Assembly (NCBI RefSeq): GCF_000219605.1
Contig: NC_015740.1
Coordinates: 4,278,001-4,342,000, forward strand
Length of the DNA stretch: 64,000 nt
Source of the DNA: Stutzerimonas stutzeri
Lineage (GTDB): Bacteria > Pseudomonadota > Gammaproteobacteria > Pseudomonadales > Pseudomonadaceae
Direction of reading: 5' to 3'
A program made the position numbers and the translations under genes. Of this stretch, positions 39,581 through 60,198 are shown piece after piece (position 1 is the stretch's first letter; every line of letters begins with the position of its first letter). The notes beneath the pieces were generated by a model that was not told the origin of the DNA, searched no databases, and saw only the letters and a list, made by a program, of their open reading frames with translations.

Positions 39581-42500
39581 TCTTCCTGCTCCTCATCGGC
39601 CAGGGCATCCAGGGCTGGGCCGATCAGCTGTTCGGCCAGGGTTTCGAAACGCTCGTCCAGCGGCTCGCGGTCGCGGAAGGCCAAGGCGTTCCAGGGGTCT
39701 TCGGCTTCGGCGGGGATGGGGCTGAACTCGGCGCCGAGCCAGGCTTCGCGGGCGCGCTTGCGGGCGCAGTCCAGCGGCTCGCTGCCGCGGCTCGGCTTGC
39801 GGTAGCCGCGGGCAAAGGCCTGGCTGCTGCGCGGCAACAGCGGCAGTGGCTCGCGGATCGCGCTGCGGTAGGCCACCAGCCAGGGCTCCAGCAGCTCGGC
39901 GGCGTTGGCCAGCGGCCCCAGCTGCCAGTCACCGGCCGGCGAAAGCATCAGGCTGTGGCGCTCGATGCCGGGCGTGGCGCACAGGTTGAGCAGCAGGTGG
40001 CGCAGCCAGAACGGCGGCAGGTCCCATTCGCCGAGGCGGCCGAGCTTCCAGCCGAACAGCCCGCCCGGCGTCACGCCATCGAGCCAGCCATGCACACGCA
40101 CGCCGGCCAGGGTGATATCCACCGGCAGCGGCTCGGGCACGGCGTCCGGGCGCAGTTCGAACAGCCGCGGTGCAAAGGCACGCACCGGGCCGCGCAGTTT
40201 GCCCCACAGCGCCTGGCCCAGCTCGCCGGTGGGCAGCCAGCCCGCCGCGCAGGCCATGCGCCGCTCCTCCTCGTCGCTCCAGCCCTGCTCCATCGCTTGC
40301 AGCGACAGGCGGCGCAGGCCGTTCCAGGCCGGCATTTCCAGGTCGAACGGTTCGTCGCTGGCAAGCGATTCCTGATCATCGGCCAGGCGCAGACCGAGGC
40401 GCTGTTCGAGCAGGAAGCGCGCCGGGTGGCGGAAGCACTGCAGCAGCTGCGACGGCTCGATGGTCAGCCAGGCCTCATCGGGTTCGGCGAGCAGGCTGGC
40501 GAAGGGTTGCGCCTGCGCCTGTGGTGGCTCGGCCAGGCGCTGGGCGGCGCGGAACCAGGGCAGCGAATAGCCGGCACAGGGCGCTTCGCCGAAATTACGC
40601 GGCGAGAACGGCTGCAACGGATGCGCGATGAGGATCGTCTGGCTGACCGGCCGCGCCCCGTCGGCCAGCACGGCGGTCATGTCCACCGCCTCCAGTACCT
40701 CGCTGAGCAGTACCGAGGGCGGCAGCACGGCGTTGTCGCGCGGGTCGCGGCCGACATAGGACAGGTACAGCGCCTGGCGCGCCGAGAGCAGCGTCTCCAG
40801 CAGCAGGTAGCGGTCGTCGAGGCGCCGCGCCCGGTCGCCACGGCGCGGATGCCGGCCGATCAAATCGAAGCCCGACGGCGGCGTGCGCCGCGGGAAGGCG
40901 CCATCGTCCAGGCCGAGCAGACAGACCACGCGGAACGGCAGGCTGCGCATCGGCACCATGGTGCAGAAGGTCACCGCGCCGGTGAGGAAGCCCGAGGCGC
41001 CGCCGCCCTGCTGCAACGCGGCGCTGAGCTGCTGATGCACCAGTTCCAGCTCGATGGGCCGGGTGAGGTCGGCGGCCTGGGCCTGATCGCGCAGGGCGGC
41101 GCAGGCCTGGGAGAGCAGCAACAGCGTCTCGCCGGCCTCGCGCTCGTCGAACAGCGTATCGATCAGCACTTGCAGGTCATCCGCCCACTCGGCCAGCGGG
41201 CGCGGCCGAGCCAGTTGATCGGCCAGGCTGCCGAGCCGCTCGACGAAGCCCACCAATCGCCCGAGCAACTGCCCGCGCGCGCCTTCCAGCGCGTCCAGCG
41301 GCCAGTGCTCGCCAAGCAAGGGCGCGCGGTCGCCGGCCAGCTGCGGCGGTGCAGCGAAGCCCAGCAGCAGGCGGTCCAGCCCCTGGCGCCAGGTAAAGGC
41401 TGATTCGGCCGGCAGCCCCAGCCGTGCGCGCTGCTCGCCATCGCGGCCCCAGCGCACGCCGGCCTCGCGCAGCCAGTCACGCAGCAGCGGCAGGTCTTCG
41501 CTCTCGATGCCGGCGCGGCGGGCGATGGCCGGCTGTTCCAGCCAGGCGAGGATTTCCTCGGCGGCGAAACGGCTCTGCGCCAGCAACAGCAGTTCAAGGA
41601 AGGCCTCGATCAACGGCACCTCGGCGCGCAGGCTGCGGTCGGCGAGGCTGTAGGGAATCCGCGGGCTGCCCTCGCGCGGGGCGAACACCGCCTCGATGAA
41701 GGGCGCATAACGTTCGATGTCGGGGGTCAGCACTACCACCTGGTCCGGCGTCAGCGCCGGGTCGGCGGCGAAGCGCGCCAGCAGCTGGTCATGGAGGATT
41801 TCCACCTCGCGCAGCGGCGAGTGGGCGATATGCACCTCCAGTGAACGGTCGTTCTCGGCCAGGGTGATCCGCTCATCGGGCAGGCGGGTGCGCAGGCGCA
41901 GGATGTCGTTCTGCAAGGCATGCAGCAGGCTGTCGTCGTGCAGGTCCTCGTCTTCGGAATACAGGCCGAATTCCTGACTGCCTTCGCTGGCGGTCAGGCT
42001 GAACAGCGAGTCGAAAAAGTCGCGGCCCTGCTTGCCGAGACTCGCCAGCAGCGGATGGCCCACGTCCAGATACCAGTCATCCGCGCCGGACGGCTGGGGA
42101 GCTACTGCGCTCGAGGAGGCTTCGTTAAAACCCAACTCGGGATGCTCATGTACGGCCTGTACACTCCGCTCCCTCGCCGGGTTTTGCCTTGCCTGCTCTT
42201 CGCTCGCGACGCTCCCCAGCCGTCCGGAAGAAGGAAGCTGCCGTGCCAGCTCGCGGATATCGCGAATCTCGCCCCACGCCTCGCGGCTCGGGTTGAGCGC
42301 GCAGACCACTACGTCGATATGCCGTGCCAGGCCGTCGAGCACGCGCAGATGGTGCGGCGGCAGGCTGCTGATGCCGAACACCAGCAGGCGCTCGGGGAGG
42401 TCCGGCAACGGCTCGTCGCGATAGAGGCGCTGCAGCAGGTCGCCGAGCAGGCGCGCGCGGTGCGGGTGGCCGTCCTTGGTCAGTTCGCGCCAGAGCAGCG

Positions 42501-59090: not shown

Positions 59091-60056
59091 ATGAAAGGCA
59101 AATCCTTGGCATGGATCTTTACCGCTGCTCTGGCGGGAACCGGCCTGAGCACAGTGGCACAGGCGCAAGAGAAGTTCGTCACCATCGGCACGGGCGGGCA
59201 GACCGGCGTTTACTACGTAGCCGGGCAATCGATCTGCCGCTTCGTCAACCGCAATGCGGAAAACATCAAGTGCAACGCCCCGGCCAGCGGCGGCGGCGTG
59301 GCCAACGTCAACGGTCTGCGCAGTGGCGAATTCAACTTCGGCATCATGCAGTCCGACCACCAGTACAAGGCAATGGAAGGCGTCGCACCCTTCGAGAAAG
59401 AAGGGAAGATGGACGACATCCGCGCGGTGTTCTCCCTGCAGAGCGAAGTCTTCACCGTACTGGCCCGTCGCAGCGCCAACATCAAGGGGCTCGATGACCT
59501 CAAGGGCAAGCGCGTCAACATCGGCAACCCCGGTTCCGGTCAGCGCGACACCCTCGAAGAGATCATGAAGGTCAAGGGCTGGGACAAGTCGGTGTTCTCC
59601 CTGGCCGCCGAGCTGAAGCCGGCTGAGCAGGCCAGCGCACTGGGCGACAACAACATCGATGCCATGACCTACTTCGTCGGTCACCCCAACGGCGCGATCC
59701 AGGAAGCCACCACCACCACCGACGCGGTGCTGGTGCCGATCACCGGCCCGGAGATCGACAAGCTGCTCGAAGAGCGCAGCTACTACACCAAGGCCGAGAT
59801 TCCCGGCGGCCTGTACAAGGGCAACGACCAGGCGACCCAGTCCATCGGTGGCAAGGCCGTGCTGTCCACTACCTCCAAGGTCGATGCCGAAGTGGTCTAC
59901 CAGCTGGTCAAGTCGGTGTTCGAGAACATCGAGCGCTTCCAGCGCCTGCATCCGGCCTTCAAGGACCTGAAGCCGGAAGAGATGATCGAAGTCGGCCTGA
60001 GCGCGCCGCTGCATGAAGGCGCCGAGCGCTACTATAAGGAGCGCGGCTGGCTGTAA
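59091..60056 (+). CDS. TAXI-family TRAP transporter substrate-binding protein
   Basis: 321 aa, signal peptide of about 25 residues (MKGKSLAWIFTAALAGTGL, cleavage near AQAQ). The mature start FVTIGTGGQTGVYYVAGQ and the later RVNIGNPGSGQRDTLEEI define the TAXI (TRAP-associated extracytoplasmic immunogenic) type. Homologues bind glutamate, 2-oxoglutarate or similar small acids. AAAAAGGAG lies 8 nt before the ATG. It partners with the fused permease downstream. The stop codon TAA is part of the repeat that follows. Confidence 0.94.
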   Translation: MKGKSLAWIFTAALAGTGLSTVAQAQEKFVTIGTGGQTGVYYVAGQSICRFVNRNAENIKCNAPASGGGVANVNGLRSGEFNFGIMQSDHQYKAMEGVAPFEKEGKMDDIRAVFSLQSEVFTVLARRSANIKGLDDLKGKRVNIGNPGSGQRDTLEEIMKVKGWDKSVFSLAAELKPAEQASALGDNNIDAMTYFVGHPNGAIQEATTTTDAVLVPITGPEIDKLLEERSYYTKAEIPGGLYKGNDQATQSIGGKAVLSTTSKVDAEVVYQLVKSVFENIERFQRLHPAFKDLKPEEMIEVGLSAPLHEGAERYYKERGWL

Positions 60057-60198
60057 GAACCTGTTCATGATCTGCTGCGCGTCGGCCCTGCTGCGTTAAA
60101 AACAGGCTCGGAATGCTCATTTACATCAGTAAACTCCGCTTCCTCGCCTGTTTTTGCCTTGCATGGCTCTAGCTCGCGAGATCGTGAACAGGCTCTTA
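60054..60198. repeat. 145-bp palindromic element, relative of the recC insertion
   Basis: Ends TAAGAACCTGTTCATGATCT (60054-60073) and its complement at 60179-60198 match at 18/20. The core (GCGTTAAAAACAGGC, TCGGAATGCTCAT, GTAAACTCCGCTTCCTCGCC, TTTTTGCCTTGC, GCTCGCGAGA) closely follows that of the copy in recC. The halves of the core are themselves inverted (AAAAACAGGC and GCCTGTTTTT). It lies between TAXI and its permease and provides the TAXI stop codon; the structure may act as an intra-operon hairpin. Confidence 0.85.

Follow-up and report, generated by a model that had tools for sequence, protein, structure and literature searches.

A palindromic, MITE-like element carried in frame within recC of Stutzerimonas stutzeri, and the hairpin family to which it belongs

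Introduction

The Rickettsia palindromic elements (RPE) are described as palindromes of ~150 bp that lie in frame in unrelated protein genes, with 44 gene insertions reported in one species and eleven of twelve homologues situated in ORFs (PMC10969869). The ERIC/IRU/RU-1 repeat is a MITE-like palindrome with an open frame of 41-42 aa that is at times fused in frame; the fusions to named proteins described in that source lie at gene ends (PMC2759123). QMITE1 and QMITE2 of Coxiella are reported as long palindromic MITEs whose ends vary around a conserved core and of which some lie in frame in ORFs, and the same source mentions MITEs in structural RNA genes (PMC5896051). MITEPsy1 of Pseudomonas syringae, of IS5 type, is a small non-autonomous element of 100 nt at which CTAG or YTAA is duplicated; homologues are said there to exist in P. 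stutzeri and perhaps to be widespread (PMC3189936). R178 of P. fluorescens, of ~101 bp with internal 11-bp inverted repeats, is given as intergenic and present in 9-28 copies (PMC2718517).

Here we describe a palindromic element within recC of S. stutzeri, in a stretch of 64,000 nucleotides of contig NC_015740.1 (hereafter the window), together with the family of which it is a copy. The closest kinds among described elements are RPE, ERIC/RU-1 and IS5-type MITEs. A literature search, from whose coverage subscription papers were mostly absent, found no description of this palindrome family.

Results

The recC element

The host gene was identified as recC by TIGR01450 (958 bits, above the cut-off) and by full-length alignment of its product to 1w36_C. 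The element occupies nt 761-902 of the recC ORF and is open in the recC frame (Table 1). A sequence-only reading of this DNA had reported a 142-bp segment bounded by perfect 17-bp terminal inverted repeats, adding some 46-48 residues and sharing its core with a second copy elsewhere in the window. Both repeats were located, the net gain of recC over empty orthologues is 141 bp (47 codons), and over its core (query 34-124) the element aligns with the second copy at 79%; the limits proposed for the latter were also correct. The second copy starts at the TAA that forms the stop codon of the upstream gene.

With spacers of up to 300 bp, the recC pair is the only perfect 17-bp inverted pair in the window, and no such pair arose in 100 random sequences of equal base composition. 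As DNA, the element folds to -41.3 kcal/mol, compared with a mean of -23.3 for shuffled sequences (z -6.4; none of 200 shuffles as good). At the gathering score, Rfam gave no match in the window or in the loci L003, L006, L007 and L010, and the second copy gave only weak Rfam matches, far under the cut-off.

Table 1. Positions in the window of recC, its palindromic element and the second copy
Feature	Position	Strand	Remark
recC (exodeoxyribonuclease V gamma subunit), 1136 aa	39577..42987	-	insert carried in frame
palindromic element, 142 bp	42086..42227	.	net +47 codons in RecC (codons 254-301)
left 17-bp terminal inverted repeat	42086..42102	.	
right 17-bp terminal inverted repeat	42211..42227	.	
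conserved apical hairpin TGCTCATGTAC-5 nt-GTACACTCCGC	42143..42169	+	unpaired TCA/CTCC internal loop kept family-wide
second copy, end-type A	60054..60198	+	flanked by TAA and TTA

A family of covarying hairpins

The element belongs to a family with a conserved hairpin core, covarying stems, variable ends and many copies per genome. DNA searches recover few copies in the S. stutzeri genome because the stems vary, and a covariance model, R1 (118 positions, 34 pairs), was therefore built from an alignment of 26 copies, coding copies among them. Searched with R1 at E<=0.1, the own genome yielded 11 matches. Across the genus, 56 of 56 genomes matched at E<=1e-3, with 1 to 50 matches per genome and 627 in total. 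When 104 matches (101 distinct) were aligned to R1, changes on both sides were seen in 27 of the 34 pairs; covarying cells numbered 365, compared with 80.8 in shuffled controls and no more than 95 when partners were slid, in an alignment that was fitted to the structure and is to that extent biased towards it. Unpaired motifs are conserved between the stems, foremost the TCA/CTCC beneath the apical stem, and the family core is found combined with different ends.

Two further features were noticed by eye. In L009, L070 and L071 (locus positions from ~1590), one arm of the element encloses another hairpin-like stretch rich in GC, and two copies (L009, L012) lie around a hisG-like gene, between murA-like and hisD-like genes (G000:C1:1012081-1013188).

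Ends and target duplication

Copies were sorted by their ends. The pattern that defines type A itself requires TNA, which covers TAA and TGA, on the left, and 22 copies fit it. TNA also stands on the right in 19 of these, and the two Ns are equal in 17 of the 19 against 5.7 expected (0 of 20,000 permutations); the second copy in the window is one of the two in which N disagrees. Among 14 parsed copies of type C, CTAG was found on the left in eight, on the right in nine, and identical 4-mers flanked six. Inspection by eye showed CTAG on both sides of a copy on a Pseudomonas tremae plasmid, and no recognisable TNA or CTAG duplication around the recC copy.

These data show a target-site duplication in at least one end-type, as after transposition. 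We infer that the copies were moved by a transposase, and the TNA and CTAG targets suggest one that is IS5-like. The family combines the terminal inverted repeats and target-site duplication by which MITEs are recognised, the recC copy being without a clear duplication. The mobile palindrome that the sequence-only reading had proposed for this lineage is borne out by the matches in every genus genome and by the type-A duplication.

The recC site in other genomes

Searching the 56 genus genomes by tblastn with this RecC returned a single piece in five (the own genome, G047, G039, G026 and G003). In 48 genomes recC came in two pieces meeting at the insert within ~12 bases, which is the empty site that the earlier reading had proposed to look for in close strains, and in three only a distant homologue of 37-40% identity was found. 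Of the 30 loci fetched, the 18 lying on the parsed strand were read through the junction; four of them hold the insert or a shorter form and 14 are empty. The inserts measure 142 bp (G047), 157 bp (G039), 88 bp (G026) and 71 bp (G003), and the gains over the empty site, 141, 156 and 87 bp for the first three, are all multiples of three. R1 matches the inserts of G047, G039 and G026 (weak, 25 bits); it does not match that of G003, whose kinship to the family is unsure.

A protein database search with the insert only returned nine RecC proteins, and in a search with the whole protein the full insert was present in the query and in 14 of the best 120 of 2841 matches. Among the matches listed, RecC proteins of 73-75% identity also carry it (P0050, P0054, P0057, P0060 and P0072, the last from Pseudomonas sp. 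LS44), whilst the shorter forms P0012, P0016, P0027 and P0031 resemble in-frame internal deletions. With a closely similar peptide at the same site in those five proteins, the insert is not confined to this lineage. The sequence-only reading had held that finding the same residues in the RecC of distant Pseudomonas would refute its proposal; a closely similar peptide does occur in strain LS44, yet the empty sites still show that an insertion took place.

On a quick tree of 121 RecC proteins, built with the loop left out, the presence of the insert requires 12 changes, at least eight of them forced by well-supported branches; since no more changes are required in 16 of 500 label shuffles, the insert is only weakly clustered. 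By eye, the recC insert peptides are closer to one another than to those of a second host gene, nasA (see below). On account of this resemblance we consider that recC was probably entered once and long ago, and that the allele has since undergone loss and in-frame shortening and has probably moved between lineages through recombination. Repeated insertion or selection can also be read from the patchy distribution. The own genome additionally encodes a second, divergent RecC-like protein (G000:C1:3682184-3685453) of 38-39% identity to the RecC of the window.

In-frame copies in other genes

A non-random set of 122 matched rows was examined for coding flanks, comprising the top R1 matches, all own-genome matches, the RecC loci and a few loci from a peptide search; places already represented (L014, L112) and two weak matches on the opposite strand (L193, L149) had been removed. 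Fourteen rows, corresponding to 13 distinct loci, are clearly in frame, in five unrelated genes. Besides recC, these are nasA, a nitrate-reductase-like molybdopterin oxidoreductase named from Pfam and NCBIfam although below the NCBIfam cut-off (G010, G018, G028, G030, G035 and G043); an aromatic ammonia-lyase that passes Pfam PF00221 (G038); a urea carboxylase, whose gene piece is cut by the locus and falls below the NCBIfam cut-off (G005); and a 4-hydroxyproline epimerase that passes the NCBIfam cut-off (G001). The remaining rows showed no long coding frame read through, which does not prove each to be intergenic; L144 and L187, which are open into the downstream gene but before its likely start, were not counted. 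The proposal that the palindrome enters genes in frame thus holds for the family, recC included, but in-frame copies are a minority of the rows.

All five genes carry the copies on one strand and in one phase. Four of the genes came from a frame-blind list, whereas the epimerase was picked by a peptide search in that very frame; coding copies also went into the building of R1. The common frame therefore reflects in part how the copies were found. Among 103 distinct non-coding cores, the used frame is open in 25 and the two other frames in 33 and 28. Of the 56 genus genomes, six have a filled nasA site and 43 a nasA match split where the insert lies, the own genome being empty there; nasA is fragmented in G012, and six genomes lack a close homologue.

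Constraint at silent sites was assessed in five nasA carriers, without G018, which is nearly identical to G010. Of 38 synonymous codon columns in the element two vary, whereas 166 of 422 do so in the flanks (p 4e-6) and, up to a distance of 60 codons, 42 of 103 (p 1e-5); the flanks diverge normally within ~20 codons. For the recC pair G000-G047, of equal length, the corresponding counts are 3 of 48 in the element against 112 of 501 (p 0.004), and against 16 of 116 locally (p 0.13). In the pair G000-G039, with gaps removed, dS is 0.16 in the element and 0.37 in the flanks; the peptide is no more conserved than the flanks, since dN is 0.039 in the element and 0.020 outside it. Constraint on the nucleotides themselves, as judged from these substitutions, is well supported in nasA and unproven in recC.

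Copies within the FMN riboswitch

One copy in the own genome (G000:C1:783162-783294; L003, L106) splits the P3 hairpin of an FMN riboswitch, both halves of which match RF00050 below the cut-off; the split form was detected only with a relaxed Rfam threshold. An FMN riboswitch match was obtained in 54 of the 56 genus genomes, 30 above the cut-off and 24 below. The element was found within the P3 loop in all 23 split cases fetched and in the own genome, that is, in 24 of the 54. Intact riboswitches, of which 25 of 30 were parsed, have P3 loops of 12-33 nt, with a single exception of 66 nt that resembles a remnant.

Mismatches in 22 distinct fetched riboswitch copies comprise 29 cells (13 pairs) that are G.U in the transcript, three cells (three pairs) of A.C and eight others, in copies that share ancestry, so that the cells are not independent. 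From this pattern the riboswitch hairpin is read as one kept as an RNA stem that would lengthen P3. Family-wide, the mismatch cells are 51 G.T, 52 A.C and 75 others out of 3225, at first sight an even balance. A single pair, however, supplies 25 of the G.T cells, and without it G.T stands at 26 against 52 for A.C; for this reason we do not put forward the idea that the palindrome is kept at the DNA level. The family at large may also lean to G.U in the antisense transcript.

Position of the insert in RecC

In the alignment to E. coli RecC (1w36_C) the insert falls between two conserved motifs, WGEI and VGHPLLAS, opposite E. coli residues 252-294 by residue count in that alignment. The stretch between the motifs is 16-32 residues long in 69 of 81 RecC proteins parsed. 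An AlphaFold model of RecC (65 sequences; mean pLDDT 62.5, pTM 0.39), with pLDDT <50 over residues 233-399, did not place the insert. Tolerance of insertion here is supported by the shorter forms, which differ in length among themselves, and by the natural variation in length of this spot, seen in E. coli too; this is the part of the earlier proposal of an insertion-tolerant RecC loop that stands. The inserted residues most likely form a surface extension that RecC tolerates.

Matches beyond the genus

At E<=1e-6, R1 matched 100 of 274 genomes of the class, in 84 of 221 genera with the own genus included. The exact core pattern was found in at least 119 stretches, and 14 of the 80 matches listed are Bacteroidota records by title. 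Twelve genomes chosen from the core-pattern matches gave from 4 to at least 150 R1 matches each at E<=0.01. An even draw of 149 genomes from the class of one Alistipes genome yielded five with a match at E<=1e-4, the chosen centre among them. Copies in a Pedobacter MAG have a proteobacterial look and may be contamination. A Mariprofundales MAG and a Nitrosomonadales MAG (G338, G339; L266, L248, L268) hold at least 150 matches each, and two core matches lie together on some contigs.

Comparison with described elements

The family resembles RPE, by description rather than by sequence, in its in-frame insertion into unrelated protein genes, here five. It differs from RPE in its host lineage, and in that RPE lie mostly within ORFs whereas only the 14 of 122 rows are in frame here. 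Being RPE-like in action yet not mostly genic, the family is classed with in-frame palindromic MITEs. With ERIC it shares the apical hairpin TCA-CTTAC-4 nt-GTAAG-CTCC, identical in two E. coli ERIC copies. The score of R1 against E. coli ERIC is weak (~10 bits, E 0.037 in 1,088 bases), with the apical hairpin aligned exactly, and we treat possible homology between the two as a lead. We do not assign the family to ERIC proper: ERIC is 127 bp long with a TA duplication, compared with 142-145 bp and TNA or CTAG here, and the ERIC fusions described lie at gene ends, whereas the in-frame copies of the present family are internal.

QMITE1 and QMITE2 are alike, as described, in being long palindromes with a conserved core, variable ends and some in-frame copies. 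MITEPsy1 is likewise a small non-autonomous element with a CTAG duplication, but measures 100 nt as opposed to ~140-150 bp, and its terminal-repeat stretch TCTGAAAAAGCC is absent from the family loci examined. The intergenic repeats of P. fluorescens, R178 among them, may be related, to judge by their description.

Discussion

We read the recC segment as a non-autonomous, MITE-like palindromic element of ~140-150 bp that landed in a length-variable surface segment of RecC, where it is likely a tolerated extension, and of which other copies are kept as an RNA stem in a riboswitch; we would put the probability of this account at about 0.8. It is supported by the occurrence of the family in every genus genome, the covariation of its stems, the agreement of TNA at the two ends, the empty sites in recC and nasA, the five genes entered in frame and the riboswitch copies. 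A transposase, of IS5 type to judge from the TNA and CTAG targets, would have moved the non-autonomous copies of the palindrome. Of the landings in genes, only those that kept the frame and yielded a tolerable peptide would have survived. One old landing would have fallen in the length-variable surface segment of RecC, and the resulting allele would then have been lost, shortened in frame and recombined between lineages. A landing in the FMN riboswitch would lengthen the P3 hairpin, the element being kept as an RNA stem.

Ordinary length variation of RecC combined with a chance palindrome can be set aside almost entirely: RecC length does vary at this spot, but the inverted repeat is far beyond chance and the core sequence and structure are common to hundreds of matches elsewhere. 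That the insert alters Chi recognition, as the sequence-only reading had offered besides tolerance, is also very improbable. Chi is recognised in a tunnel housed by RecC (PMC7644769), but the stretch at this position is short in most of the RecC proteins parsed and so dispensable in many, and the structure model has low confidence over this region. Somewhat less remote, albeit still unlikely, is retention of the RecC allele in some lineages under selection from RecC-binding phage proteins resembling P22 Abc2. The insert matches the E. coli segment whose helical bundle is described as displaced by Abc2 (PMC9836394), and its presence on the RecC tree is patchy; such patchiness, however, arises equally from neutral loss and recombination, and the other in-frame host genes encode metabolic enzymes.

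Tolerance alone is harder to reconcile with the nasA copy, where the near-absence of synonymous change is not what tolerance would lead one to expect. A tentative alternative, which we hold to be possible but well short of even odds, is that the hairpin owes its retention to its nucleic acid, as a DNA or mRNA structure bound by a protein both within and between genes, its copies being domesticated rather than merely tolerated. The conserved unpaired core motifs, the silent sites of nasA and the G.U bias of the riboswitch copies are in keeping with this. Against it, the local contrast in recC is not significant, the genomes are related so that codon columns are not independent events, and recent recombinational spread of an element allele could mimic constraint, though the nasA flanks diverge normally. 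A doubtful extension would unite all these hairpins, by their apical TCA/CTCC loop, in one DNA-hairpin superfamily that crosses phyla, its members spread over Gamma-, Beta- and Zetaproteobacteria as well as Bacteroidota and its enterobacterial branch being ERIC; a conserved factor would recognise the core and fix its nucleotides even within genes, and the RecC allele would alter the patch bound by the phage inhibitor.

Under the preferred account of a MITE-like element in a tolerant site, the family provides a free-living relative of the Rickettsia in-frame palindromes. Because empty sites, target duplications and shortened alleles are all available, the survival of proteins that receive such insertions becomes testable. 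The family further shows that, in close to half of the genomes searched in the genus, a riboswitch aptamer houses a mobile hairpin. In RecC, finally, the surface segment known in E. coli as the site of a phage inhibitor is marked out as one at which insertion alleles are gained and lost in nature.
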